Shown here: positions 1 to 20,200 of the stretch, piece after piece
Layout of the letters: the number at the start of each line of letters is the position of its first letter
Position numbering within the stretch: the first letter of the stretch is position 1
From: Tetradesmus obliquus
Lineage: Eukaryota; Chlorophyta; Chlorophyceae; Sphaeropleales; Scenedesmaceae
Direction: 5' to 3'
Assembly (NCBI GenBank): GCA_030272155.1
Contig: CP126198.1
Coordinates: 1,984,001 to 2,048,000, forward strand
Length of the DNA stretch: 64,000 nucleotides
The notes under the pieces: generated by a model
What the model was told of the DNA's origin: nothing
What the model saw: only the letters and a program-made list of their open reading frames with translations
Databases searched by the model: none
Program-made: the position numbers and the translations under genes

Positions 1-584
1 GCTGCACATCATTTGATGATGTAAATAGGACGATTCTAAGCATAGTAAAAGCATAACTGCGCACCTTCAAGCAAGGCTGGTCCAGAAGCCCCTGATGTCA
101 CCATGTATGTGCCTGATTGACCGTGCATGGCACGATGCCACTTGCCAGCACACTCCCTACACATTCCCAACACACACACGCGCATGCACTGCGCAAACCA
201 CACCCAGGACCACCATGTCAACAGCAGGCACACGCTGCAACATGGCATGCAGGAGCCGTGAAGATCTGTCTCGTACCAGCTAACCACAGAGAACCAAATT
301 CACAATGAAATACTCAATGATCAGCCAGTACACTGCCCGTGTCTTACGGACGCAATACCCGACAAGCATGTTTGGGCAGGGCATGACTCATCACGAGTCC
401 GAGTCGTGACGCAGCGCGGTCCCTGCTGCCGCAACTGCTGCAGCAAGGCAGCCTGCAAGCACTGGCGGCCCAGCTCCCACCATGCAGATGTAAAGCAACC
501 CTAGACCAAAGCATGATTCAAAAACTACAGCCATGCTGCTCGCAGCCAAAACTCAAAAAGAAACCTGGCAGTGCATGCATGGCC
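1..584. other. 3' flank of the malic enzyme fusion gene
   Basis: I see no coding region. The fusion gene stops at 585, so its 3' untranslated region must lie here. Near position 20 is the 21-bp word ATGTAAATAGGACGATTCTAA, which recurs at about 37868 in the same orientation and may mark a dispersed repeat. Confidence 0.5.
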
Positions 585-752
585 TTACATGCTGGTCCTC
601 AGCGCTAGGTCAGCCAGGGTGCGCTTGTACTGCACAATGTCTATGTCTGCCAGCCGCGCGACGCCTGTGGCTATTGCCGCCTCCACCACTGCCCCAGCCA
701 CCTCCGGCAGCAGCCGCTCATCAAAGGGCTTGGGGATGATGTAGCTGAAGGG

Positions 753-789
<37 letters not shown>

Positions 790-1518
790 GCGGCAGCAGC
801 AGAAGTGAGGGGGAGGTTATGCTACAGCAGCAGTGACGCAGCAGGAGCAGAGGCTGGTGACTCTGGCAACAAACTGCCGACAAGTAGCATAAGGCAAACA
901 GCAGCAGCCTTCGTCAGAGACCAACACCACAACACAACTAAGGACGTGAGCAGTGCGGCAAATGTGTGAGGCTGAACACAACAGCAGCTTGCACACTCAC
1001 TGCTTGCCGAACACCACTGGCGCGTTGCCGCCCTCGCCCTCCGCTGCTGTGTAGAAGCAGCCTTCCCCATACGACTTGCGCCGCGTGTGGTGCTGCTTGC
1101 CGCTGCCAGTGTGCCGGTGGTGCCCTTTGGGTGGCGACCCGCTCCTGCCTCCTGCTGCTGCTGGGGTGTCTGGTGGTGGATTCTGCTGGCTCGTGCCGCT
1201 GCTGGCTGTGCTGCTAGCTATGCCGCTGCTCTCAGCAGCAGCTGCCGACACATCTGTGCTGAGAGTACTGCTGGTAGTGCTGCCGTTTGCCGCAGCACCA
1301 GCTTGCTGCTCACTCTGCTGCTGCTGCTGCTGCTGTGGTGCTGCACCTGCTGCTGCTGTTGCTGCTGCTGCTGCTGTGGCGAGCTGGATGAGGTCTCCTG
1401 CTGATGGCGAGCGGCGCTTCATGACTGGCCGCTTTGCTAGTGCGGCGATGGCGTAGGTGGCTGCTCGCTTCATCTCCTCATTCACGGCACTGAGGGGCAG
1501 GGCATGTATGCACAGCAG

Positions 1519-1566
<48 letters not shown>

Positions 1567-2287
1567 CTGAGTCAGCAGGTGCAAGTCCAACAGGTGCAAG
1601 TAACATTGAGCTGAGTATGCCTTACGAGGCTGCTTGCTTCATCTCCTCGTTGACAGCGCTGAGGGGACAGAGCATGTATGCACAGCAGCACGCGCAGCAG
1701 CTAGCTGAGTCAGCAGGCACGGATTATGTGACATCTAAGGAGCATCAAGTGCGTAACAAACGACAACAAGCGGCAAATGACAAACAGCAAAAAATACCAG
1801 CCCCACCACTCACCGCGCCCTGCAGTCCAGCGCTCCCTTGAAGATGTAAGGGAAGGCGCACACATTGTTAAACCCAAACTACAACACACCAGCAGCAGCA
1901 CATACAACCGGGTCTTCAGACAAACATGAACTCACCGCGCCCTGCAGTCCAGCGCTCCCCTGAAGATGTAAGGGAAGGCACACACGTTGTTGATCTGGTT
2001 GGGGAAGTCGCTGCGCCCCGTGGCCATAATCACATCCGGCCGCGTGGCTGCTGCTATCTCAGGATCTATCTCAGGGATAGGGTTGGCGCAGGCAAACACC
2101 AGCGGGTCACGCGCCATGGACAGCAGCATCTCTGGCGTGAGCAGGTTGCCAGCCTGGCGGCAGCAGCAGCAGCAGCAGAAGCAGCAGCGGCAGGGTGGGC
2201 AGGTGTCATGAATGTAAAGCACAGGCAAAAGACTGGGCGGGTCTCGTGCCATAGATAGTAGCATCTCCGGCGTGATCAGGTTGCCGG

Positions 2288-2327
<40 letters not shown>

Positions 2328-2564
2328 GGAACAGGTGTCATGAGTACAAAGCGCAGGCAAAGACCAGCGGGTCTCGCGCCATGGACAGCAGCATGTCCGG
2401 CGTGAGCAGGTTGACGGCCTGGCAGAAGCAGCAGCAGCAGCAGCCGCGGCGGTGCGGCAGCGAGGACAGGTGTCATGAGGATGGAGCGCAGGCGAAGACC
2501 AGCGGATGACGTACCATGTACAGCAGCATCTTAGGAGTGAGCAGGTTGCCGGCCTGGCAGCAGC

Positions 2565-2598
<34 letters not shown>

Positions 2599-3999
2599 GG
2601 GACAGGTGTCATGAGTACAAAGCGCAGGCATTGCGCAAACACCAGCGAGTCATGCGCCATAGACAGCAGTATCTCTAACGTGAGCAGGTTGCCGGCCTGG
2701 CAGCAGCAGCAGCAGCAGCAGCAGCGGCAGTGAGGAAGGGTGACAGGGGTTGTATAGTCCTGCAGCCCATCAATCTGCTCTGCTGAGTCCAGCCTGCACC
2801 CTGCCCAGCCGCAAGGGCGCACTGTGGCAGTTCAAACAAGTTCAAGCACGCTTTCAAATAAAGTTCACGCTGGACTTCACACCCCAGCTCACCGAGAGCC
2901 CCAGGAACACGTCTGCTCCTGCCACTGCCTCCTTGAGTGTGCGCAGCGGCGTGTCAACTGCCACCTCGCTGAGGTAGTTGTCCGGCTCACTCAGGTCCTC
3001 GCGCCCCGTGTACACCACTCCCTGAAAGCAGCAGGCAGGCAGGCAGGCACGTGTACATACGCGTTGTCGATTGAAGATGGCAGCATATGTGTGCATTTGG
3101 AGCTGCCAACACAGCCTGAGCGCTTAGTGCATGCACTCAATTTGTCTGCACAGCACTTGACTGTCGCTTCCATAGACACGAACATGCACGTCAATACACC
3201 AACAGCTCACTGATTGGCGAACCCTGCGTCACAACCCCGCACCCTGCAACTGCACGCAAATCCTGGCCCACAACTACACCCACATCAACGTCAACCCACA
3301 GCGATCAGGTGCTGCTGCTGCACCCCCAGGCTCACAAAGCACCAAGCGCAGGTTCAACAAACATGAATTCCAACCCTGGACCGTGCAACCCTGAAACCAG
3401 GTAACCGGTTACAACACAGCAGCAGCGCTCACCTTGACATCCACCGCGATCAGGTTCTGCTGCTGCACCCCCAGGCTCACAAAGTACTTGGCGCACGTGA
3501 AGCCGGCAGCGCCGCAGCCACACACCACCACCCGGATGGAGGAGATGTCCTTGCCTGCAAGCAGCGGGTTACAATAAGTCGCAGCTTTGTAAGTGGTAGC
3601 GGGTTGCAGCTTGTCAGCGGTAGCAAATCAATCAAGCACAGCAGTGCGCCATGTGCGCAGCCATGTTTGTGTGGGGCAAGGGCCAACATGATAGCAACAC
3701 CTTGAGAATTGACATGAGCGCAGCCGCACTTGAACCTCACCGTGCACATGCATGGCAGGTGAACGCCTGTACACGCACACATTTCTGCAGCATGTGTGAT
3801 ACGCACTGATGCTCTCCCGCGCGTTATTCAGTCCTATTCCAGATATGATGGCGGTGCCGTGCACAACATGCATGGCAGGCGCATGCCCTTGCACATGCTC
3901 CTTGCACTTTTGACACAGTGTTTCAACATATCACATGCAATGCATGCAAACTGCCCGCTTACCAATGATCTCCAGCGCGTTGATCAGCCCCGCTCCTGC

Positions 4000-4038
<39 letters not shown>

Positions 4039-7000
4039 AATGCTCATGCGGCGCTGCGCCTCGCGCTCCACATAGAAGCACTCCGGCGCCTGCACATGGC
4101 GACAGCGTGATGTACACATGATGTTATTGTGCTGTCAACACGGGGATGCTCATGCGGCGCTGCGCCTCGCGCTCCACGTAGAAGCACTCCGGCGCCTGCG
4201 CAAGGTGGCAGAGTGATGTACACATAGTGTTATCGTGCTGTTAACATGATGCCCAGCAGATGTTGGTGAGGCTGACAAAGCTCTTAAGGCAGCCGCTGCA
4301 GTTGGCTGCAGCTGGCATGCAAGCCTGCGAGAGGCTGTCATCAACGCAATGAGCTGGGGTGAATGAAAGATGATCGTCGCACTTCCACCTACCTCCTGAC
4401 CAGGGCTATTGCACATTATACATCCCAACCACGGCCCCAGAAGCATGTACTGTATATACAATCATGTATCAAGCTTACAGCCGCACCTTGATGTCCTCCA
4501 GGTTGACCCCTCCAAAGGTAGGCTCCAGCGCCACCAGCAGATCCACCAGCTTGACAGGCTACCCCACCCAGCAGCGTCTTCAACACCACAAGCACACCCT
4601 TGAAGTTGCCCTCAAGGCTGACGCACCCCAAGGGCCGCATGCACATGCACGTGCCATCCCAGCTTTTCATAAGTGCACCAGCTTTCCAACTGTGCAGTTA
4701 CGCCTAAGCCCCCGGCCGAAGTCAGCCAAAGCGCACCGTAATATCCTCCAGGTTCACCCCTCCAAAGGCGGGCTCCAGAACCACCAGCAGATCCACCAGC
4801 TTGACATGCTACCCCGCCCATCAGCGTGTTTAACCACACCACAAGCACACCCTTAATGTCGCCCTCAAGGTTGACGGACCTCAAGGGCCGCATGCACATG
4901 CATGTGCCACCCCTGCTGTTGAGAAAACCGCAAGCGCTTCGACTGTGCAGTTACCTCCTGACCCCTGGCCTGAAGCCAGCCGCAGCGCACCTTGATATCC
5001 TCCAGGTTGACCCCTCCAAACGTCGGCTCCAGTGCCACCAGCAGATCCACCAGCTTGACAGGGTCGTCACAGTTGACCTGCAGCACACATGCAGCCAGGC
5101 CGCAAGAACCTGTAATACATTGAGGCAAAGCTGCTCAACACAGCTGTTCAAAGACAAGATGCAGGTGTTGAGGAAGGGTGTCAAGCCCTTGACAATCTCG
5201 TCATACCTGCAGGATGTGTGTGCAGAGGTCAAGTTTTGGAACAGGGTGTCAGAAATGACCAGTGCCACCAGCAGATCCACCAGCTTGACAGGGTCGTCGC
5301 AGTTGACCTGCAGCACACATGCAGCCAGGCCGCAAAACCTGTGATACACAGCAATGCTGCTCAACACAGCTATATCTGATCCGGATTCTGCTCCACCAGC
5401 TTGACCGGGTCGTCGCAGTTGACCTGCAGTCACATGGCCAACACAGCGACACACAGCTGGTTACTTGGGTCTATTGCCTAACACCTCCCTGTGACACACC
5501 AGCCATCTCTGCAAGTCAGCAAGCAGGCAGGCAAGCAGGAGGAATGCTATCGCATGCAGCGCCACCAGCAAATCCACCAGCTTGACAGGGTCGTCGCAGT
5601 TGACCTGGCATTGCGCAGCAGCAAATCAAGCGCAGCAGCAAAACATTGACCTCGTGGTTGTGAGGGCGTGACCTGTACATGCGCGTAGGCACCTGTCGAG
5701 GTATGGCTGCAGCACACTGCACATGTTGCATGCAGGAAATGGCATGCAAAACGCATGCGCCCTCTTCCAGGAAACGAACCCATCAACATGTCCCGGTCAG
5801 CGGCGTAGCATCGGCTCACCTCCAAATCAAACGCGTCCAGGTCTGCAAACTTCTTGAACAGCACCGCCTTGCCCTCCATCACAGGCTTGGCCGCCAGCGC
5901 CCCAATGTTGCCCAGCCCCAGCACCGCGGTGCCATTCGTGATGACACCGACCAGATGTCCCTGTGCAGAGCGGCAGCAAGAGACACAGAGACACAGAGAG
6001 ACAGAGAGACAGAGAGAAAGTTCAGTTTGATCAGCAGAAGCACCACGGTGTTGTTGGTGGTAACACCCACCAGGTGGCCTTAAGAAAGGGATGAAGATTG
6101 TGTGAAAAAAGCACACTGTGTTGCAGAGGCCCAGCAGAGGCGCTGAGAGAAGAACGTGTATGCGCCATTGGGATATGGACAGCAGATGGGCAGCAGATCA
6201 GCTGCACAGGACGTTCCAGCAGTCAACTTGCCGCGTTGTGATGCTGTCACGCAGCGTGCACAGCACAGCATCTGCTAGTACTAACAGCACACAGCACGAT
6301 GCACCCCACTCGAAGTTATGTTGAACACCAGCTTCCCGCCTTACCTTGGCCGTGTACTCATATGCGAACTTCTCGTTCTGCTGGATCGACAGGCACGGCT
6401 CAGCAACACCTGCAGCAGCAGCAGGTGCAGTAGCGGTGGTCATTCTGCTGCACTGCCCAACACAAGCCAGCTGGCATGCCAAGCAAGGGAACTAGCAAAT
6501 GCCAGCTTGCACGATTGGGTGCAAGTCGCCCCATCACCCCGCTGCCATACAAGCCCTACATGACGCTTCACCCAGGGAGTAGGTGACGCTGAGGCCTTTA
6601 TGCAAGTGAGCCCATGCAGCTCGTCCATCTATCAAAACCCAACCTAAGCAACCCGTAAAAACCCCAAACCGCCCTCACCCCGGGTTTAGGCCACGCTGAG
6701 GTCCTCCTTGGTGCCCATCAGCTCGCATGTGCACGGTGCATTGTGCTGTTGCAGCCCGCTTATCAAAACCTCAGTCACCGGTCACCCTAGGACTCTTATG
6801 GTAGGCCACGCTGACTCTGCAAGTGTGGTGCCGTTGGCAGTGTGCAGATTTCACACCACCAGCCACACCCAAACAAGACATATATGCATAAATGCAAGAT
6901 GAATATACTGTGCCTCACCCGGGGAGTAGGCCACGCTGAGGTCTTCCTTGGTGCCCATCAGCTTGGTGGGGACCACCTCCAGCTTGCCCGTGCTGTGGCA

Positions 7001-9273
7001 GCAGCAGCAGCAGCAGCAGCGCAGTGTTGTCAGTGGAGAGTCAGAGTCAAAGCGGCGCAGCCATCGCTAGTTATCAAGACCCACTGCACAGCGCTGGCAG
7101 CGAGATGAACGCAGCACAACACAGCGCCATGTTCTCCTCACTGCCCAATCATGTGGTACTTGAATGCCCACTGAACATCACAGAAGAGCAGCGCAGCACA
7201 GCACACCACAGCACACCACAGCGCCATGTTTTCCTCACCGGCCGGTATTTCAGCGCCCACCAAACAGCACAGCACAGCGCAGCACCCCAAAGCAAAGCAC
7301 ACCACAGCACACACCAGCACAGCACAGCACAATGCCAAACCGCAAACGCTCTCCTCACCGCCCGATCTTGTGGTACTTGAGCGCCCACTGGCGTGTGAGC
7401 CGCTTGCGGAAGGCCGCCCAGTCCCTGCTGGACAGCCGCATGCCCGCCTCACTCTGGCGCAGCGCATGTGTACAAACCCACCCTGCCTTCGGAACTGGAG
7501 CGCCCGCCAAATAGCAAAGCAGAGCAATACGGCACACACACCACAGCGCACCACAGCGCCATACTTCCCTCTCCGCCCAATCTTACGGTACTTGAGCGCC
7601 CACACAACAGCAAATCACACCGCAGCAACACAGCACAGGGATAGCAGAACAGCACAGCGAAGCCAGCACAGCGCAACACATCACATCACAGCAAAACAGC
7701 ACAGCACAGCACAGCACGGCCCATTGTCTTGCAACCACAAACGTACTCCTCACCGCCCAATTTTGTGGTACTTCAGTGCCCACTGGCGTGTGAGCCGCTT
7801 GCGGAAGGCCGCCCAGTCCCTGCTGGACAGCCGCATGCCCGCCTCGCTCTGGCGCGCTTGGCCAGCTAGAATGGCCTGCAGCCGGTCCTCCGTCTGCTGG
7901 AAGCGCTCCAGCTGTGGCCCACAAGACAGCAGTGATATAGTAGTGAGTGAGTGAGTGAGTGAGTGAGTTAGTGAGTTAGTGAGTGAGTGAGTGAGTGAGT
8001 GACCAGCCAGGATGGCCTGCAGGCGGTCCTCAGTCTGCTGGAAGCGCTCCAGCTGCAGCGCAAAACACTGCAGCACAAAACACAGCAACTCAAGACTGAG
8101 GAAGTGAATAAGTGAATTCTGGGTAGCATATGGCCTGCAGCCAGTCCTCTTTCTGCTGAAAGTTGGCAGAAACCTGACTGCTGCAGGCTGCTGTGGATGC
8201 TATAGACTCTTAGGACAGCTTGGAGAACTGCGCACCATGATGCGCCCCAGGCGCTGCACAATGGCTGTTGCCACTGGGTGTTGGTGGTACACCAGTGGAT
8301 GGAAGTCCCCGATGAACAAGCGCCATGTTCAAAGGTTTTTGGTGCCTGGAAAACTTTGGAAACCCCAACAATGCCCTTTAATTTACTGATCAACCAAATA
8401 TAAATAACACGACCTATAGATTGTATGTTTTACGCAGCATGTGCGCACCATGATGCGCCCCAAGCGCTGCACGATGGCTGTTGCTCCAGGATGTTGGTGG
8501 TATACCAGTGGATGGAAGTCGCCAATGAACAGCCGCAGCAGCCGCGCGTCTTCGCTGGTGACGGCTACTGCCGTGGTGAAGGTGTTGCTCTGCTCGCCGT
8601 CGTCCTGCTTGATGTCGCTGAACAGCGCAGCCTCACCCTGCAAGCACAACAGATGCAGACGATGTGTCAGGTTTGGAGGAATTGCGGCACTCTTCGTTGG
8701 TGTATGTGGAGCATTGGCTGGTGTGACAAGCTTTGCATGTAAAAGGACCTGATTGTCAGCAGTGTCACCGGTGTCGCCAGCACCACCATAGGCAGCTAGT
8801 GACCAGCCACTCACCACGAAGCTGCCCTCTGGCAGTGTGCCCAGGTTGATGCCATGCCTCCAGTGACCACTAGTTGTCACCAAGTGTCACTACTCATCAC
8901 TGTTGACCACTGTTGCTCCCCACTCACCACTCAGCTGCCCTCGGGCAGTGTGCCCAGCTCGACACTGCAGCGTCACCAGTAACTAGTGTAACCAGTGCCC
9001 CCAACGTCACCAGCGCCACTTCTTCCAACTAGTGCCCCCCCCCCCCACACACACACACTCACCACAAAGCTGCCCTCAGGCAGTGTGCCCAGGTTGATGC
9101 CGCCGCGCTGCAGCTGCACCTCACCCTCCATCAGGAAGAAGAAGTGGTCGCACTGCAGCAGCAGAGCAAAAACAGTGATGTTAGACTGTTGGAGGATGAT
9201 TGATTAAAATTAATCAAGCTGCACCTCGCCCTCCATCAGGAAGAAAAAGTGGTCGCACTGCGGGGCAGTACAC

Positions 9274-9370
<97 letters not shown>

Positions 9371-9471
9371 AACAACAGACATTAAGAGTCAGACTGGCTA
9401 CCTGTGAATGCCTAAGCTGCACCCCGCCCTCCATCAGGAAGAAGAAGTGGTCGCACTGCGGGGCAGTACAC

Positions 9472-9507
<36 letters not shown>

Positions 9508-10184
9508 GCAGCAAAATAACAGAGATTGAGAGTCAGACAAACTACATGTAAATGCCTAAGCTGCACCTTGCCCTCCATCAGGAAGAAGAAGTGGTCGCAC
9601 TGCAGCATGCAGGACAGAACACGTAATAAAACATGTCTGGTTGGTTGCTTAAAGCTGTGCAAGCTGCACCTCGCTTATGCAGTACAGGCCGCCACAATCA
9701 CAGCTAACAATTGCAACACACAGCAAGCAGGCGCAGCTGAGGTGAGTGCGTGCTGTTTGCAAGTAGGCGCCACGGCAGGAAGCCAAGTAACGTAAGCTAT
9801 GGTGTGTACAACAGCCGCTGCGGCCGCCGCCGCCGCCGCCGCAGCAGCAGCAGCAGCAGCAGCAGTGCTGCCCCACCTTGTCATTTTCCTGGATGAGCAG
9901 CTGCCCCTGGCTGGCCGCCACGTCACTGCCCAGCAGCAGCAGCACCTCACGCTCAGCAGGCGACAGCGCGCGCAGCGCGGGAGCCTGCAGGAGGGACACA
10001 CGACACCACGGCAGGCAGGCAGGCAGACAAAGAAGCTTGAAAAAAGCAGGTCAAGCAAGGTCTTCAGCCCCCTTCCCTGTGTCATCAATCACACAGCCAC
10101 CCAAGCAGGCAGAAACAGCTAGCTCCAATGGAAGCCACGGCAGGCTGGGCATTTGCAGGCAACAGGAAAGGTGGCAGTGCGCGC

Positions 10185-10217
<33 letters not shown>

Positions 10218-10283
10218 GCACCTCACGCTCAGCAGGCGACAGCGCGCGCAGCGCCGGAGCCTGCAGGAGGCACGCCACACCAC

Positions 10284-10372
<89 letters not shown>

Positions 10373-11302
10373 AGAGATATGTTGGGCAGGGTAGCTGGCC
10401 TACACCAGCTACAAGGCTAACCACGCAGGCCGGCAGCCAGGCAGCAGGTCGAGCAAGGTCGAGCAAGGTCTTCAGTCCCGGAGCCTGCATGCAGCACGCC
10501 ACGTCAAGGCAGGCATAAATATAGGGCAAGCCAGGTCAGCAGCCCTTGTTAAGCATGAAGAACGATGCAGGCAGGTAGCCCAGCCAGGCAGAAAGCGCAG
10601 GACAAAGCACATGCAAGATACAGCAAAGGCCAGCTGCGAAGCAGGCAGCGAATGGGAGGTGGCTGTGTGCATGCACAAGCCAGCCGCACCTGCTTGTGCT
10701 GCGCGAACTTGTGTGGGTTGACGAAGATGGGGATGACGTCATATTCGTCCATATGGTGCGGAACTCCTCAAAAGGCAACACAAACCATGAAGGCAAGCAT
10801 GCTACCAGGCAGGAAATCGGGCCACCAGGCAGGCAGGCAGGGGGGGCAAAAGGCAATTGCCGCTCCTAGCAAAGCAACGGCTGGTTAGGCGACTTTAAGG
10901 CCGCATAACGCCAGCTGGCGCACCTGCTTGTGCTGCGCGAACTTGTGTGGGTTGACGAAGATGGGGATGACGTCATATTCGTCCATGATGGTGCGGAACT
11001 CCTCAAAAGGCAACACAAACCATGAAGGCAAGCATGCTACCAGGCAGGAAATTGGGCCACCAGGCAGGCAGGCAGGGGGGGCAAAAGGCAATTGCCGCTC
11101 CTAGCAAAGCAACGGCTGGTTAGGCGACTTTAAGGCCGCATAACGCCAGCTGGCGCACCTGCTTGTGCTGCGCGAACTTGTGCGGGTTGACGAAGATGGG
11201 GATGACGTCATATTCGTCCATGATGGTGCGGAACTCCTGGAAGGACAGCAGCAGCAGCCGCGGGTCGTTGCAGCCGCCACCCTCCTCGGGAAACACCTCC
11301 TG

Positions 11303-11352
<50 letters not shown>

Positions 11353-12633
11353 GCAGCAGCAGCAGCAGCGGCGGCAGCAGCATGTCAAACGTGTAACTAG
11401 ATCTGGCTTTTGACCACCCCTAGCAGTGCATAGAACTACTGTGATGGCTTGGCCGCCAGGTACCTTGTGTGGTTGGGCTATGTACAAGCATTGTGCATGC
11501 GCCAGCGGAGGAAGCATGCTGCAAGTCGCCAACCAGCCCCATCACACATCATGCTGCCTGGTGTGCTTCATGAAATTACCAACATCAAGCTGTGGTATAC
11601 CACACTGACTGCAAGATGTTTGCTGTGATGCCAGGCATGAAAAGTGTTCAACTGCACCTCATCCACGTAGACCTTGATCTCCTTGTATGTGGTGCGGTTC
11701 ACATCCTGCAGCAGCCGCTCAAAGTCCTGCAAGCAGCAGCAAGCAGCACGGCGGCCAGCACATTGCTGCAGTTGCACACAGTCCTGCCAGCAGGCACACT
11801 GACAAGCAGCAAGCAGCAAGAGGCCAGGCGCGTAGGCAGAATGCTGATGCTAGAGAGCGGTCAGCAAGCACGCAACCAAAAGGCGGTTCACATCCTGCAA
11901 CAGCCGCTCAAAGTCCTGCAGGCCAGCGCAAAGCCACAAGCAGCAAGCAGCAAAGCCAGGGCTGTTTGAGGGACATTGATGCTGAAGGCATTCGGCAAGC
12001 ACAAACACACAGGAAAGTGGTTCACATCTTGCAGCAGCGGCTCAAAGTCCTGCAAGCCAGGGCAAAGCCAACAAGCAGCAAGCAGCAAAGCCAAATCTGT
12101 TTGAGAAATGCTGATGAAAAACGCATTCGGCAAGCACACACGCAGGAAAGTAGGATATATCCTGCAGCAGCCGCTCAGAGTCCTGCAAGCCAGTGCACAG
12201 CCAACAAGCAGCAAGCAGCAAGCGGTAAGGCCAGGCGTGTTGGCGGGATGCTACAGGACATCATTGCAAGCATGCACGCAGCATGGCAGGCAGCAACTCC
12301 GCAAGCAACACCACCACACAAGTCCTGCTCATTAGCGCGTCAAGCACACAGCCACCAGCTGCTGGCGTGCTATAACTGCGTACATAACAGTTCAATCGGT
12401 ACCACCAGCAGCAGCAGCAGCGCACCTCCTTGTCCAGGAAGCCGTCCCTGTCCCGATCATACATGCGGAACCAGAAGCTCAGGATGTCATCTTTGTCACC
12501 CCGGTACAGCGTGCTCAGCGCGCATGCAAACTGGCTAAAAGAGATCCAGCCGCGGCTGCTGTCATCCATTGCTGCATACATGGCCTGCAGCAGGCGGGTG
12601 TCGCTGGTGCAGAAGGCTGCAGGACCGCAACAT

Positions 12634-12665
<32 letters not shown>

Positions 12666-14528
12666 CATGTGGTGAAGAGAGGTCACGCACAGGCAGGTTA
12701 CAGATGAAGCTGGAAAGAGCAGCGGTGAATACACCACGACGCTGCAGTTGCATGAGCAATACACAACACAGTGGACACACACAAGCTGGGGGGCCTATGC
12801 AGAGTCGAGCAGCTGCCATTCATTGATGCAGTAATACAGCTGGCAACCTAAGCTAGCCAGTGTATGCGGCCTCAAGCAGACGCTGAACATCCATGCTGCG
12901 GTACTAAAGCAGCGTTGCCGTGTCATGCAGTACACAGCAGCCGCCTGGCAGGAATCTGCTATATGCAAGTGCACTCCCTGTGTTTCAAGTGATATGCACA
13001 TGACTGTGCCTTCCAGACAGACACATACCCAGTGTGCATTGCAAGCTGCGAATTTGTGACACAAGCTGCCGCAGGGGGTTTCCCACCTGCACCCAGCGAC
13101 TTGAAGAAAGTCTCCTTGTCCACATGGTCATCTGAGGTCTGGTGCTCTGAGAAGTGGTGCAACAGCACCTGCAGGACACATCAACAGCAGCACATCGATA
13201 CATCTGCAGTTGTGAAGTGCTTGTCCGCAGTCTGTTGCTGCTAGCACAGACGCTGCTGCTGCTATTGCAGATGCTGCTGCTAGCACATGCTGCTGCTGCT
13301 AGCGTAAACACTGCTGCTAGCGTAAACACTCCTGCCAGCGCACACATGCTGCTTCCAAGCACACATGCTGCTTCCAAGCACACACTGCTGCCAGCGCACA
13401 CGCTGGTGCAAGTGCACATGCTGCTGCCAACGCCGCCGCTACCGCTGGCGCACTCTGCTGCTACCACGCATGCTGCCGACAGCGCACACACTGCTGCCGG
13501 GAACATGCTGCTGCTAGTGCCAGACCCCCTGCCAGTCCAACTGCTCCCTCAACTCTCCTGCACAGGTTGATGCTGCCTGCTGCACACCCCACACAGCCTT
13601 GCTGCTGATGAGTATACATACACAGCAAGCCAAGGCACACAGTTGCTGAGCTCAGAGCAATCGTGTGAAATGACGCTACTGAATTGTCGCTCAGCAGCTG
13701 TACAGCTATATGCTGCTGACCTGCAGCTCTGTTGATGAGAAGGCAGTTTCATCCTGCAGGTCAAGCAGGATCTTGCGCTGCCATGCTGCACCACGTGCCT
13801 GCTTGCCTGCAGTCGGCGCAGAGCCACAACAGCAGCAACAGCAGCAGCAGCAGCGGCGGCCACAGTAAGGATACTAAGACATGCGCAGAAGGTAGCTGGT
13901 GGTGAGTATGCTGCTGGGTGAGGGTGGCAGTGGCAGCGGAAGAGTTGCAGTTGCAGACACTGAAACGCGGTGCTGGCATGCACCTGCAGCCGTGCACAGC
14001 AGGCTTGCTGTTTTCCTGCAATTCCAGCACATGAATAAACCATCCCCGGGTGTGTTTCACTGCGTGCGGTCCCACACAGTCAGCTGCTACAGTAATGATG
14101 TGCCCAGTCAACGGCGTGATTTTGGCGCAATTGCAGCTCGCACCAACTACACAACAAAGAAGGCCAGCGTAGCTGCTGAGAAACTATATACTAAAAAACC
14201 AAGCAGCAGCACTGCACGGCCGAAGGGCAGCACTTCTGCACAGCAGTCACATGGTATCCTGCAAGCAGGACAGCACACAACATGACCCACCGCCACATCA
14301 CCCACCTGCTGCTTTGTTCATCAGCTCCTCGGCTGCTACACCTGTTGGACTCATCCCGAGTACATCCTCCTCTCCGGAGAACTTGACCTTTATCTTCCTG
14401 TGCTGCCCGATGCTAAGGGTCCTAGTCATGCCGCTACTGCTGCTGGTGGGGCTCTTGCCAGTCTCAGCTGCAGCAGGTATGCTGGTGCTGGCAGCTGCTG
14501 CCACGTCTATATCCGTCTTTTGATCCAT
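585..14528 (-). CDS. EF-hand / CNB-like / malic enzyme fusion protein, 20 exons, about 982 aa
   Basis: Predicted oxidative decarboxylation of malate to pyruvate and CO2 with NAD(P), with regulatory domains in front. Exons, 5' to 3': 14528-14306, 13806-13721, 13168-13087, 12616-12426, 11726-11658, 11299-11159, 9984-9877, 9152-9063, 8637-8449, 7911-7754, 6992-6919, 6409-6345, 5960-5820, 5077-4991, 4089-3963, 3554-3433, 3021-2893, 2153-1936, 1489-1001, 744-585. All junctions are GT-AG and in phase, 2949 nt in total including the TAA. Residues 1-103 are Ser/Thr-rich and then helical, 104-264 are EF-hand-like, 265-430 CNB-like, 440-982 malic enzyme. The start is the ATG of MDQKTD; an in-frame upstream ATG at 14579 is possible. 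I see no clear transit peptide. The exon 7911-7754 carries both the end of the CNB part and the start of the malic enzyme, so the fusion does not rest on joining two gene models. No transcript data support it here. Confidence 0.85.
1620..1860 (-). repeat. Extra copies of exon edges 18 (3') and 19 (5')
   Basis: At about 1632-1690 is a diverged copy of the acceptor side of exon 1489-1001 with its flanking intron. At about 1803-1860 is a close copy of the donor side of exon 2153-1936. Both are in the gene's own orientation and keep recognisable splice sites. Confidence 0.75.
2154..2745 (-). repeat. Tandem copies of the 5' edge of exon 18 with CAG runs
   Basis: Four further copies of the segment encoding [16 protein letters not shown] follow the real one (about 2240-2300, 2365-2425, 2500-2560, 2645-2705). 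Each is preceded, on the coding strand, by a CTG run ending in an AG acceptor. Spacing is about 130-145 bp. The copies differ by substitutions, so they are not a recent assembly stutter. Confidence 0.85.
3290..3360 (-). repeat. Copy of the 3' edge of exon 16
   Basis: About 60 bp matching the donor side of exon 3554-3433 (sequence for [13 protein letters not shown]) repeated once in the downstream intron. Confidence 0.7.
3820..4205 (-). repeat. Partial copies flanking exon 15
   Basis: A diverged copy of the 3' part of exon 4089-3963 lies at about 3825-3890. A nearly exact copy of its 5' part (for [18 protein letters not shown]) lies at about 4140-4200. The real exon sits between them. Confidence 0.75.
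4480..5620 (-). repeat. Tandem array of exon 14 copies
   Basis: Exon 5077-4991 (for [25 protein letters not shown]) is surrounded by partial copies at about 4485-4560, 4735-4810, 5255-5325, 5390-5430 and 5560-5612. Those below the exon keep the donor half, those above keep the acceptor half, several with intact splice signals. Confidence 0.8.
6565..6830 (-). repeat. Copies of the 3' edge of exon 11
   Basis: Segments resembling the donor side of exon 6992-6919 (for [12 protein letters not shown]) recur at about 6568-6600, 6676-6726 and 6795-6830 with increasing decay. Confidence 0.65.
7130..7615 (-). repeat. Copies of the 3' edge of exon 10 in an ACAGC-rich intron
   Basis: The donor side of exon 7911-7754 (for [12 protein letters not shown]) recurs at about 7135-7180, 7225-7255, 7350-7460 and 7560-7605. 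The copy at 7350-7460 covers about 100 bp almost unchanged. The intervening DNA is a degenerate ACAGC/CACAGC repeat. Confidence 0.8.
7942..8165 (-). repeat. GTGA microsatellite and copies of the 5' edge of exon 10
   Basis: A GTGA tetranucleotide run fills 7942-8004. Next to it, about 8005-8055, is a close copy of the acceptor side of exon 7911-7754, with a decayed one at about 8125-8165. Confidence 0.8.
8225..8330 (-). repeat. Copy of the 3' part of exon 9
   Basis: About 100 bp matching the donor-side half of exon 8637-8449 (for [20 protein letters not shown]), including the downstream GTGCGC donor, lies one repeat unit further along the intron. Confidence 0.75.
8805..9615 (-). repeat. Copies of both edges of exon 8 with long CAG runs
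   Basis: Exon 9152-9063 has donor-side copies at about 8812-8865 and 8925-8970, and acceptor-side copies (for [10 protein letters not shown]) at about 9210-9260, 9415-9460 and 9558-9606. A pure CAG run of about 95 bp (9274-9370) and a shorter one near 9473-9510 separate the acceptor-side copies. Confidence 0.85.
10190..10372 (-). repeat. Copy of the exon 7 acceptor edge and a GGCA tetranucleotide run
   Basis: About 10195-10275 repeats the 5' half of exon 9984-9877 (for [17 protein letters not shown]) with the same intron flank. A pure GGCA run follows at 10286-10371. Confidence 0.8.
10640..11112 (-). repeat. Two long tandem duplications of the 3' edge of exon 6
   Basis: The real exon 11299-11159 is followed on the coding strand by two copies with a period of about 235 bp (10905-11005 and 10690-10770). 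Each covers the sequence for [20 protein letters not shown], the donor and the following intron. The units at about 10879-11113 and 11114 onward are almost identical, so this duplication is young. Confidence 0.85.
11159..13168 (-). other. EF-hand region of the fusion protein
   Basis: Four exons (13168-13087, 12616-12426, 11726-11658, 11299-11159) read like a calcineurin-B or recoverin-type helical calcium module. One loop is canonical: [12 protein letters not shown] has Asp at positions 1, 3, 5, 9 and 12 and Gly at 6, and its last residue is supplied by the next exon across a phase-0 intron. The preceding loop ([12 protein letters not shown]) keeps Asp1 and Gly6 but has Gln at 12, so it probably binds calcium poorly or not at all. 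A third segment ([16 protein letters not shown]) is only EF-like. Inference: one good calcium site near residues 184-195, able to transmit a calcium signal to the CNB and enzyme parts. Confidence 0.75.
11870..12215 (-). repeat. Tandem copies of the exon 5 acceptor edge
   Basis: Three diverged copies of the acceptor side of exon 11726-11658 (for [10 protein letters not shown]) lie at about 11885-11920, 12018-12055 and 12155-12190, spaced about 135 bp, separated by AAGCAGC-rich intron. Confidence 0.75.
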
Positions 14529-17210: not shown

Positions 17211-20200
17211 TTAGATGCTGCCGCGCTGGTTGGTCAGCGGGTAGCACTTGATCAGCAGCAGGGAGCTGACAATGGAGATGAGTGCCATGCCAACCATCCA
17301 CAGGGCAGGGCCGATGAAGATGGACTTGGTGCCTGTCTGGATGGCAGTCATCGCCAGAGGGGTCAGGCCGCCGAAAATGGTCATGCCTGCAGAGCAGAAG
17401 AAATGAGGATGCACAGTAAGGTCAGAGGGAGCTGGTGGTGGCTGAGCAGCAGTGAGGCGATTGGAAGCAGGTGGAAGCTCATGACAGAGGCAGCTGCACA
17501 TGCACTCGGCGGCCCGCAGCAGTACACTGCAGCAACCAAACATTGCTCTTGCGCTGCTGCGGCTCCGAGTGGAACAAACGAAGCATGCATGCAACACACG
17601 CCCCATGCATCGTAGCCTAGGTTCAACCTATGAGGTTGAGATCCGCAAACATGCCAGGTGGCACCACACTGCTGCGCCTCACGGCTGTAAACACTTTGTC
17701 AGCACAACTGCTCACCGAGGTTGTAGCCCAGGTTGAACCCTGAGATGCGCACACCAGCAGGGTAGATCAGCGAGCAAATCTGAGGCAGGATGCCCATGGT
17801 ATAGGCCGTCATTGCTAGGCTGAATGCCTGTAGCAGCCAGCACGCCGCGAGATTGCGGGTCTGGAAGGCCAAAAACATTGGAACTGTCATAACAGCCGCG
17901 ATCGCGCAGATCGCGATGGTGGCGGTGACGCGCGGCTGGCCCTTATCGGACAGATAGCCAGCAACCGGCACCACGAAGGTGAAGAGCACCATGCTTGTGA
18001 GCACCATCCACAGGCTGGTCATGGTGGATATGCCCGCGTGAGCCACGAAGAAGCTGGGCAGCCAGGAGTAGCCCAGGTAGAAGGAGCCGCCGATCCCTGC
18101 AGCAACGTGAAGCAACAGCAGCGGCAGCAGCACATTAAGATGTTTTGAGACATCATTGATCATGTCTAAAAACCCAGCGCTAGCAAGACGGGGACCATCA
18201 CATATTGCACGATTCAGCAGCAGCAGCTCCAAGCACCTGGCCCAAAGACAGCAGCCCAACCAAAGCGCTGCGCATATACTCTAATCCTGAGTCGCCGCAC
18301 TGCAGCAGCAGCCTGGACCTGCGGTCCTATCCAGAACACACAGCAGCAGCTCCGAAACCCGCATACTATGCTCAAACACATACTCACATGCCTCGTAGCC
18401 GCACTGCAGGATGAGGCCAGACCAGTAACCCCTGAACAGCTCCATGATCGGCACGTAGTGCTTCTCCAGGCCCTCGCCAGCCTGGCTCTCCATGTCTGAT
18501 GTGCCTGCCTCGCTCTTGGCGGCATCCACGGTGACGACATCATCGGGGGCGCGGCTGCGGCTCATGGAGCGCTTGACGCCGCTTGCATTCTGCACGAGCA
18601 TGCGGAAAGCATGCAATGTTTTGAGGTGCCTGCCTCGCTCTTGGCGGCATCCACAGTGACGACGTCATCGGGGGAGCGGCCGCGGCTCATGGAGCGCTTG
18701 ATGCCGCTTGCATTCTGCATAAGCAGACACGGGAAAGGTGACATATGCATTGGTTCAGCTGCAGTGGCTGGCCTCCTTCACTGTGACGACGTCATCGGGG
18801 GAGCGGCCGCGGCTCATGGAGCGCTTGACGCCGCTCGCGTTCTGCATACAAGCAGATATGAAAAAGGTTACATATACATTGGTTCAGTTGCAATGGCTGG
18901 CCGCCTTCACTGTGACGACGTCATCGGGGTAGCGGCCGCGGCTCATGGAGCGCTTGGCGCCGCTCGCGTTCTGCATATAAGCAGATATGGAAAAGGTTAC
19001 ATATACATTGGTTCAGTTGCAATGGCTGGCCGCCTTCACAGTGTCGACATCATCGGGGAAGCGGCCGCGGCTCATGGAGCGCTTGACGCCGCTCGCGTTC
19101 TGTGTGAGTTTGCGGCAAGCATGGGAAGTTGAGAGATGCTTGGTTGCGATGACTGGCCGCCTTCACTGTGACGACGTCATTGGGGGAGCGGCCCCAGCTC
19201 ATGGAGCGCTTGACGCCGCTCGCGTTCTGCGGGGGATGAAAAGAGGAGAGAAAGGGATGCGTCATGAGTAGTAATGTGCGACGGGCAAGCGAGCAGGAGA
19301 GGCAGATGCTTGCAGAGCAGCAGGGGAGCGGCCACGGCTCATGGAGCGTTTGACGCCGCTCGCGTTCCGTGTGAATTTGCGGAAGCGGGAAGTCAGGAAC
19401 AGTCAGGATGGATTGATTAGTAGAGGTGGCTTGTGCCGCCAAGGCGACATCATCACGGGAGCGGCCACGGCTCACGGACGCATGACACCGCTGGCGGTGC
19501 GGAAGCAGCAAGGGGCCAGGAGCAAGACGCGCTTGCCTTATAGTCTGCAATTTTATTGCAGCGGCTGCACAGCATATGCAATGTACGAAGCATGAGGGGG
19601 GTAGTAGCAGGAGGAAGAGCTACAGAAGCAAGGCTGTGGTGTGGTGAACAGCACCAGGCACTTGGCCGCACCTGGGACCTGCTGCGCTTGAACTCCTTCA
19701 CACGCTGCTTGTACTCCTCGTCAATCTCCTCACGGCTGGTGGCAAACTCAACACTGCAGGCAATGCCCAGCAGCAGCAGCAGCGGCAGCAGCAGCAGTGT
19801 GTGTGTGTGCAGCAGCAGGGGCTCATAGCAAGTCACAAGCTGACATCAAGGCGGCATGAAGGTTGCGCGTGAAGGTTGCGATGGCATCAAAAAGGGCAGC
19901 ACAGGCCTGCTAATCCTGCTGCTGCACACATGCAGCTGACAGCAAACATTGCTGTTGGGGCATACATGCACATGAAATTATGTGCACAGCTGCTTCTCAC
20001 CTCTCAGGCATGTTATAACGCAGGACGACAGCGGCAATCAGCGTTGCAATGGCCATGAGGAAGGGCACACGCCAGCCCCACACCAGCAGCGCCTCTGTTG
20101 CAGCAGCAGCAGCGCATGCAGCAGCAGCAGCGCAAGCAGCAGGAAGATCAGCAGGAAGGTTGCAGACCGCAGACTACAGCAACCAAGAATCCGATATTGC

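Follow-up and report, generated by a model that had tools for sequence, protein, structure and literature searches.

A putative fusion of an EF-hand module and a cyclic-nucleotide-binding-like domain to a class II malic enzyme in the green alga Tetradesmus obliquus

Malic enzymes fused to a sensor domain are already known, and so is a metabolic dehydrogenase fused to an EF-hand (PtIDH1). In MaeB, an N-terminal extension lies over the dimer interface, a swapped helix supplies the catalytic Y52 to the partner subunit, and the conformation of an allosteric hook (369-386) varies with the phosphotransacetylase (PTA) sensor (PMC7902834; this and the other papers cited by PMC number are drawn on for the part of their text that was available). 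A survey of plant malic enzymes names prokaryotic examples of class II and omits this class from its trees, apart from MaeB as outgroup (PMC5958461). Against these examples, the presence of class II in a green alga is notable in itself. Here, we describe a gene of Tetradesmus obliquus located in a window of 64,000 nucleotides (C8:1984001-2048000; contig CP126198.1 of assembly GCA_030272155.1, 104.7 Mb in 17 contigs, which was also searched for relatives). It probably encodes a single 106-kDa polypeptide that combines an EF-hand module of the NCS/calcineurin-B type, a beta-roll resembling cyclic-nucleotide-binding (CNB) domains, and a catalytic class II malic enzyme.

Domains and gene structure

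A domain search of the 982-residue model, suggested as a check by the initial annotation of this DNA, returned four Pfam families above their cut-offs in the following order: EF-hand_6 at 179-201 (28.0 bits, cut-off 25), cNMP_binding at 289-373 (38.7 bits, cut-off 27.5), which indicates the CNB fold, malic at 448-542 (88.5 bits, cut-off 23.1) and Malic_M at 594-792 (60.3 bits, cut-off 23.5). Five further EF-type models listed (EF-hand_1, _5, _7, _8 and EFCAB10_C) stay under their cut-offs. The EF-hand region, CNB-like domain and bacterial-type malic enzyme described by the initial annotation were thereby recovered, and the enzyme is apparently complete. The NCBIfam model PRK12861 ('NADP-dependent malic enzyme') matches residues 433-787 with 521.9 bits, under its cut-off of 1178, which applies to a profile of 764 residues. 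The N-terminal modules resemble proteins of solved structure. Residues 88-250 resemble KChIP, NCS-1, recoverin and calcineurin B, which are proteins with several EF-hands; the matches fall within 77-269, and that to KChIP2 covers residues 88-203 (E 2e-12). Residues 268-339 resemble the CNB domains of cGMP-dependent protein kinases (PKG) and of the regulatory subunits of PKA (PKA-R), their nearest solved relatives.

Residues 435-982 match the catalytic half of MaeB-type malic enzymes over its entire length, which places the enzyme in class II. The best solved match is the bacterial NADP-dependent malic enzyme 9m2i (483 bits without the insert described below, 470 bits with it). Identity to the best 80 prokaryotic enzymes is 50-57%, and among the columns in which at least 98% of these carry one residue, 101 of 102 are kept, the exception being H494 in place of N. 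Motifs of the active and cofactor sites are present: Tyr468 (YSPG), VMEGK, VNLEDI, HDDQHG and GCGAAG. Enzyme activity, NADP preference and a cytosolic location are predicted features of this protein. No Pfam match to a C-terminal PTA domain was found and the protein stops at residue 982, just past the enzyme C-terminus, which sets it apart from hybrid enzymes of the malic enzyme-PTA (ME-PTA) type. Positions were transferred from structure 6zn4, which we take to be that of Bdellovibrio MaeB, its chain length and Y52 fitting with an offset of 11. In this alignment, Y52 corresponds to Tyr468 and the hook 369-386 to residues 787-927 of the model. The hook contains a low-complexity stretch of 131 amino acids (790-920), scored as two insertions (83 and 40 residues) separated by a few aligned residues, and inside this insertion lies a basic serine site, RRKS, at 903.

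The gene was rebuilt from the sequence on the minus strand (14528..585) as 20 exons totalling 2,949 nt including the stop codon (Table 1). This rebuild agrees with the initial annotation in the number of exons (20) and of in-frame codons (982). Each of the 19 introns has GT-AG borders; every acceptor ends in CAG, and 12 of the 19 donors begin with GTGAG or GTGCGC.

Reading frame across the joins

The CNB-enzyme boundary lies inside one exon, as the initial annotation had noted: exon 10 (7911-7754) encodes residues 394-445, and the alignment to the best solved bacterial enzymes starts at 435. Only this join is contained in an exon; that between the EF and CNB parts lies at an intron and depends on splicing alone. 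Composition is uniform across the three parts, with a G+C content at third codon positions of 0.80 (EF), 0.80 (CNB) and 0.81 (enzyme) against 0.56 for intron G+C. Also, codon usage of the EF and CNB parts together correlates with that of the enzyme part at r 0.88, versus 0.72 and -0.16 with the enzyme frame shifted.

The introns hold 28 same-strand partial copies of neighbouring exons, derived from 12 of the 20 exons (window 1617-12182, minus strand) and about 80-99% identical to them. One exon end is contained in 21 copies, and its AG or GT is kept in 21/21. Differences between copies and exons (n = 111) fall 16 times on first, 19 times on second and 76 times on third codon positions. They are silent in 75 cases and non-silent in 36, where the expected silent share is 24%; as overlapping copies were counted as independent and transition bias was ignored, the nominal P values are too small. 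By part, silent and non-silent differences number 3 and 1 in EF exons 5-6 (only 4 differences), 16 and 3 in CNB exons 7-9, 12 and 2 in exon 10, and 44 and 30 in the enzyme exons; exons 7-10 together give 28 and 5. In exon 10, the first 53 nt (CNB tail) differ from one copy at 5 sites and the last 102 nt (enzyme head) from another at 5 sites, all silent, and a third, shorter copy of the first part (nt 9-41) shows 2 silent and 2 non-silent differences. Both halves of this exon, with mostly silent changes, therefore look constrained in one frame. The silent excess supports a reading frame that runs through the CNB domain, the junction and the enzyme.

Copies of exons 11, 16 and 19 each carry a change that would give a stop codon, and so at least some copies are dead. 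Mutually exclusive exons were rejected, since none of the 28 copies is full-length. The copies look like products of repeated local duplication over exon-intron borders. In window 10685-11221, the end of exon 6, including the donor, occurs in three near-identical copies, one of them exon 6 itself, at a spacing of 234-235 bp. Local direct repeats (non-overlapping, within 2 kb, at least 40 bp and at least 80% identity, low-complexity pairs dropped) were present in 13 of 20 sampled 10-kb stretches of the genome versus 2 of 6 stretches of window 1-60000, with most pairs (16) in window 1-10000. The duplication process seems genome-wide, in a patchy manner.

Concerning transcript ends, most chlorophytes probably use TGTAA as their poly(A) signal; it is found near about 60% of 3' ends, about 40% lacking the motif (PMC1868727). 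On the gene strand, no TGTAA occurs from 4480 to 12701 (exon 4 to exon 14), limits that were picked after the sites were seen, versus 5.3 expected from 20 genome samples. Across the whole gene, 4 were found versus 9.0 expected, one overlapping the stop codon. At the level of the DNA, what the initial annotation described is confirmed, and we consider it highly probable that one gene gives one protein; a single transcript is predicted from the gene model.

Table 1. Exons of the gene and two partial intronic copies of exon 10 (window coordinates; aa, residues of the model).
Feature	Position	Strand	Content
Exon 1	14306..14528	-	aa 1-74; start Met, low-complexity N-tail, RTLS at 36; frame opens after a stop just upstream of 14588
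Exon 2	13721..13806	-	aa 75-103; NCS-like EF-hand module starts; best PDB matches from about residue 88
Exon 3	13087..13168	-	aa 104-130; putative degenerate EF-hand 1 (our reading)
Exon 4	12426..12616	-	aa 131-194; putative degenerate EF-hand 2 (our reading); canonical loop for the greater part (D184-E194)
Exon 5	11658..11726	-	aa 195-217; Asp195, loop position 12
Exon 6	11159..11299	-	aa 218-264; EF-hand module ends; calcineurin-B-type matches extend to about 250
Exon 7	9877..9984	-	aa 265-300; CNB-like domain starts
Exon 8	9063..9152	-	aa 301-330; CNB beta-roll
Exon 9	8449..8637	-	aa 331-393; phosphate-binding-cassette region (GE kept, Gln341 for Arg; consensus from PMC10354285) and downstream part
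Exon 10	7754..7911	-	aa 394-445; CNB tail and malic-enzyme head together; internal Met419
Exon 11	6919..6992	-	aa 446-470; Tyr468 of YSPG (role from PMC7902834)
Exon 12	6345..6409	-	aa 471-492; malic enzyme
Exon 13	5820..5960	-	aa 493-539; malic enzyme, VMEGK at 519
Exon 14	4991..5077	-	aa 540-568; malic enzyme, VNLEDI at 562
Exon 15	3963..4089	-	aa 569-610; malic enzyme, HDDQHG at 589
Exon 16	3433..3554	-	aa 611-651; dinucleotide-binding GCGAAG at 623
Exon 17	2893..3021	-	aa 652-694; malic enzyme
Exon 18	1936..2153	-	aa 695-766; malic enzyme
Exon 19	1001..1489	-	aa 767-929; low-complexity insertion of 131 aa (790-920) where MaeB has its hook (PMC7902834), RRKS at 903
Exon 20	585..744	-	aa 930-982 and stop codon; TGTAA overlapping the stop
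Partial copy of exon 10 (nt 1-53)	8000..8052	-	AG acceptor
Partial copy of exon 10 (nt 57-158)	7359..7460	-	internal Met, open frame, GT donor; an enzyme-only transcript could conceivably have its first exon here

Possible regulation and competing explanations

The best explanation, which we put forward tentatively and hold just short of probable, is that the EF module controls the malic enzyme through the CNB-like domain acting as a relay. Ca2+ (or a Mg2+/Ca2+ exchange) at the canonical loop D184-D195 would alter the EF module. The CNB-like domain, with its canonical cyclic-nucleotide site lost, would transmit this change as a rigid relay or as a protein-contact surface, and malate decarboxylation would then track Ca2+ signals rather than acetyl-CoA. 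Such control is favoured because an N-terminal sensor would adjoin the part of the enzyme nearest to the partner's active site. The loop D184-D195 carries Asp at positions 1, 3, 5 and 9, Gly at position 6 and Asp195 at position 12. Ca2+ binding by the EF module at this predicted loop, as well as the direction of regulation, are what we infer from sequence.

Several observations weigh against this explanation. The paired EF-hand model of Pfam stays under its cut-off, with 27.9 bits versus 30. EF-hand calcium sensors usually carry at least two canonical Ca2+ loops. Here, a single loop of about four, that at 184, fits the PROSITE EF-hand pattern PS00018 (scored in the form that we take this pattern to have), and its position 12 is occupied by Asp; the other three appear degenerate in our reading. 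Position 12 and the three degenerate loops are evidence against strong calcium sensing. The CNB part is altered as well. The consensus of the phosphate-binding cassette is FGE-[LIV]-A-L-[LIMV]-x3-[PV]-R (PMC10354285), and both by this consensus and in the alignment to 3of1 the invariant Arg is replaced by Gln341, followed by DD, so that the ligand site is not preserved. Arg is absent throughout 333-361, while the ribose-binding Glu is kept as E332. Finally, PtIDH1 without its EF-hand has no activity and forms no dimer, whereas mutants of its Ca2+ ligands keep near-normal activity with a lower calcium tolerance (PMC7460673). The interpretation given by the initial annotation is supported in part. 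Of the earlier claim that calcium directly gates malate decarboxylation, the presence of one canonical loop stands, but the support does not reach beyond that loop, which itself has Asp195 at position 12. Overall, calcium control of the enzyme appears plausible, at a level slightly under what we would call likely.

These same features fit another explanation, which we regard as possible and somewhat doubtful: the fusion would be real, and the EF and CNB parts would serve as a degenerate scaffold for oligomer state, location or stability, with an activity insensitive to calcium. Degeneracy affects the CNB cassette and every EF loop except one, and the EF-hand domain of PtIDH1 mainly supports the dimer (PMC7460673). 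However, the CNB exons and exon 10 seem to be under constraint (28 silent versus 5 non-silent in exons 7-10), and one EF loop retains its Asp residues at 1, 3, 5 and 9 and its Gly6.

An extended form of control by the EF module, unlikely in our view, would bring in the hook. A class II enzyme that lost, or never had, its PTA domain would receive the signal of the calcium module through a nucleotide-free CNB relay at its domain-swapped N-terminal segment, the insertion with a phosphorylatable RRKS (903) would replace the hook, and calcium and kinase signals would together set the NADPH and pyruvate supply.

It is quite improbable that the locus gives two products, namely an EF-CNB protein plus a free-standing malic enzyme starting from Met419 or from a transcript that begins at the copied exon part 7359-7460. 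Against a single coding unit, the EF and CNB parts are in separate exons that meet at the domain border (exon 6/7), and exon 6 read through its donor reaches a stop after 12 codons. Also, Met419 is located 16 residues ahead of the alignment start with the solved enzymes, and the copied part keeps its Met, open frame and GT donor, with 5/5 differences silent. However, the first 53 nt of exon 10, which precede Met419, seem to be under constraint in that frame as well (5/5 silent against one copy; 2 silent and 2 not against the shorter one), and TGTAA is absent from exon 4 to exon 14, even though about 40% of chlorophyte 3' ends do without the motif (PMC1868727).

A further explanation is that cAMP or cGMP gates the enzyme by way of the CNB domain and calcium provides a second input. 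It has in its favour the 38.7-bit cNMP_binding match, the PKG and PKA-R relatives and E332, and a nucleotide was raised as a possibility by the initial annotation. However, it is contradicted by the cassette (Q341 at the invariant Arg position, acidic DD next, no Arg in 333-361) and we give it very little credence, as such gating is not predicted for a CNB domain that lacks the phosphate-binding Arg.

Relatives and comparison with known systems

The best 80 prokaryotic loci matching the enzyme part were compared for what lies around the catalytic half, as judged by length of the open frame rather than by domain scan. Beyond it, the frame of 67 loci continues for another 320-357 codons at the C-terminal end, as it does in hybrid enzymes, and 12 end after the catalytic half, one being cut by its contig. 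On the N-terminal side, at most 147 codons separate the match from the preceding stop in these loci (two are cut by a contig start), and at most 45 codons precede the match in 8 IMG/VR loci (four are cut by a contig start). The contrast drawn earlier with the C-terminal PTA regulator of MaeB-type enzymes is therefore right for the hybrid enzymes, but not for the 12 of 80 prokaryotic loci that likewise end after the catalytic half.

In the algal genome, the model without its low-complexity stretch matched only its own locus (29 rows, all in C8:1984588-1998528). A profile search with Malic_M gave seven other malic-enzyme places (24 rows), and none of the listed CNB places (14 rows) adjoins a listed paired-EF place (26 rows). 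Such absences carry little weight, since this exon-wise search was insensitive and the window's own gene is missing from all three family lists. In a tree of 81 rows, no end branch is longer than that of the alga. It falls next to the Pseudomonadota side, where support is below the starred level, and its placement is insecure. No donor can thus be named, and such a long and insecurely placed branch does not indicate a recent transfer from a sampled bacterium.

No malic enzyme with an EF-hand or CNB domain was found in the openly licensed literature searched, within its available text. A point against the fusion is that no second organism with it was found among the prokaryotic loci, the IMG/VR loci and this literature. 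The initial annotation was not aware of any description of this architecture, in agreement with the absence of the same domain order from the best 80 prokaryotic loci and from the available text of this literature. The domain architecture is probably real and new in comparison with both.

Other observations were made on the window and the assembly. The upstream neighbour on the same strand (17699-18280, minus) resembles a Major Facilitator transporter, at 32.4 bits just below the cut-off of 33.4. Three stretches of the assembly match mitochondrial COX1, with 6, 2 and 3 in-frame TAG codons, one also having TGA. Two of these, C6:76024-76742 and C13:2010572-2010844, are in contigs of nuclear size. 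TAG = Leu, the code of Scenedesmus-type mitochondria, scores highest for the C6 fragment (166.5 bits versus 160.4-161.8 for Gln, Ala and Ser); in the same test, the C13 fragment gave no match at 1e-5. Both fragments are likely nuclear copies of a mitochondrial gene that uses this code, which points to a sphaeroplealean green alga as the probable host.

If control of the malic enzyme by its EF module is true, a second messenger would act on an enzyme of central carbon metabolism within one chain, with no kinase or calmodulin between. This would provide a testable model of how calcium signals are linked in algae to the supply of NADPH and pyruvate, as used for instance in lipid synthesis. The enzyme would also have an N-terminal sensor with no relationship to the acetyl-CoA sensor that its bacterial relatives carry at the C-terminus.

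The MaeB-type enzymes (9m2i, 6zn4) share with the algal protein the whole catalytic half, 101 of 102 near-invariant columns, the YSPG tyrosine, NLEDI and HDDQHG, whereas the algal protein adds N-terminal EF-hand and CNB-like modules, lacks PTA and carries the 131-aa insertion in the hook (model 787-927, MaeB 369-386). Bacterial ME-PTA hybrids likewise join a malic enzyme to a sensor domain from another protein. However, their sensor is C-terminal and binds acetyl-CoA (PMC7902834), while the sensor-like part of the algal protein is N-terminal and of eukaryotic type. The nearest precedent is PtIDH1, an isocitrate dehydrogenase of the diatom Phaeodactylum: here too, an EF-hand is attached to a decarboxylating dehydrogenase from the central metabolism of an alga. 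It differs in that its EF-hand is C-terminal, the enzyme family is another, and it occurs in a few stramenopile algae only; the available text mentions no CNB domain (PMC7460673).

The NCS, KChIP and calcineurin B proteins match the algal module over 88-250, and its third loop is canonical in our reading of the layout. Unlike them, the algal module is part of an enzyme, has no N-terminal Gly for myristoylation, carries Asp at position 12 of EF3, and its other loops appear degenerate. Finally, the CNB domains of PKG and PKA-R share the CNB signature and the GE of the cassette with the algal domain, which in contrast lacks the phosphate-binding Arg, has acidic residues after that position, and is associated with no kinase.

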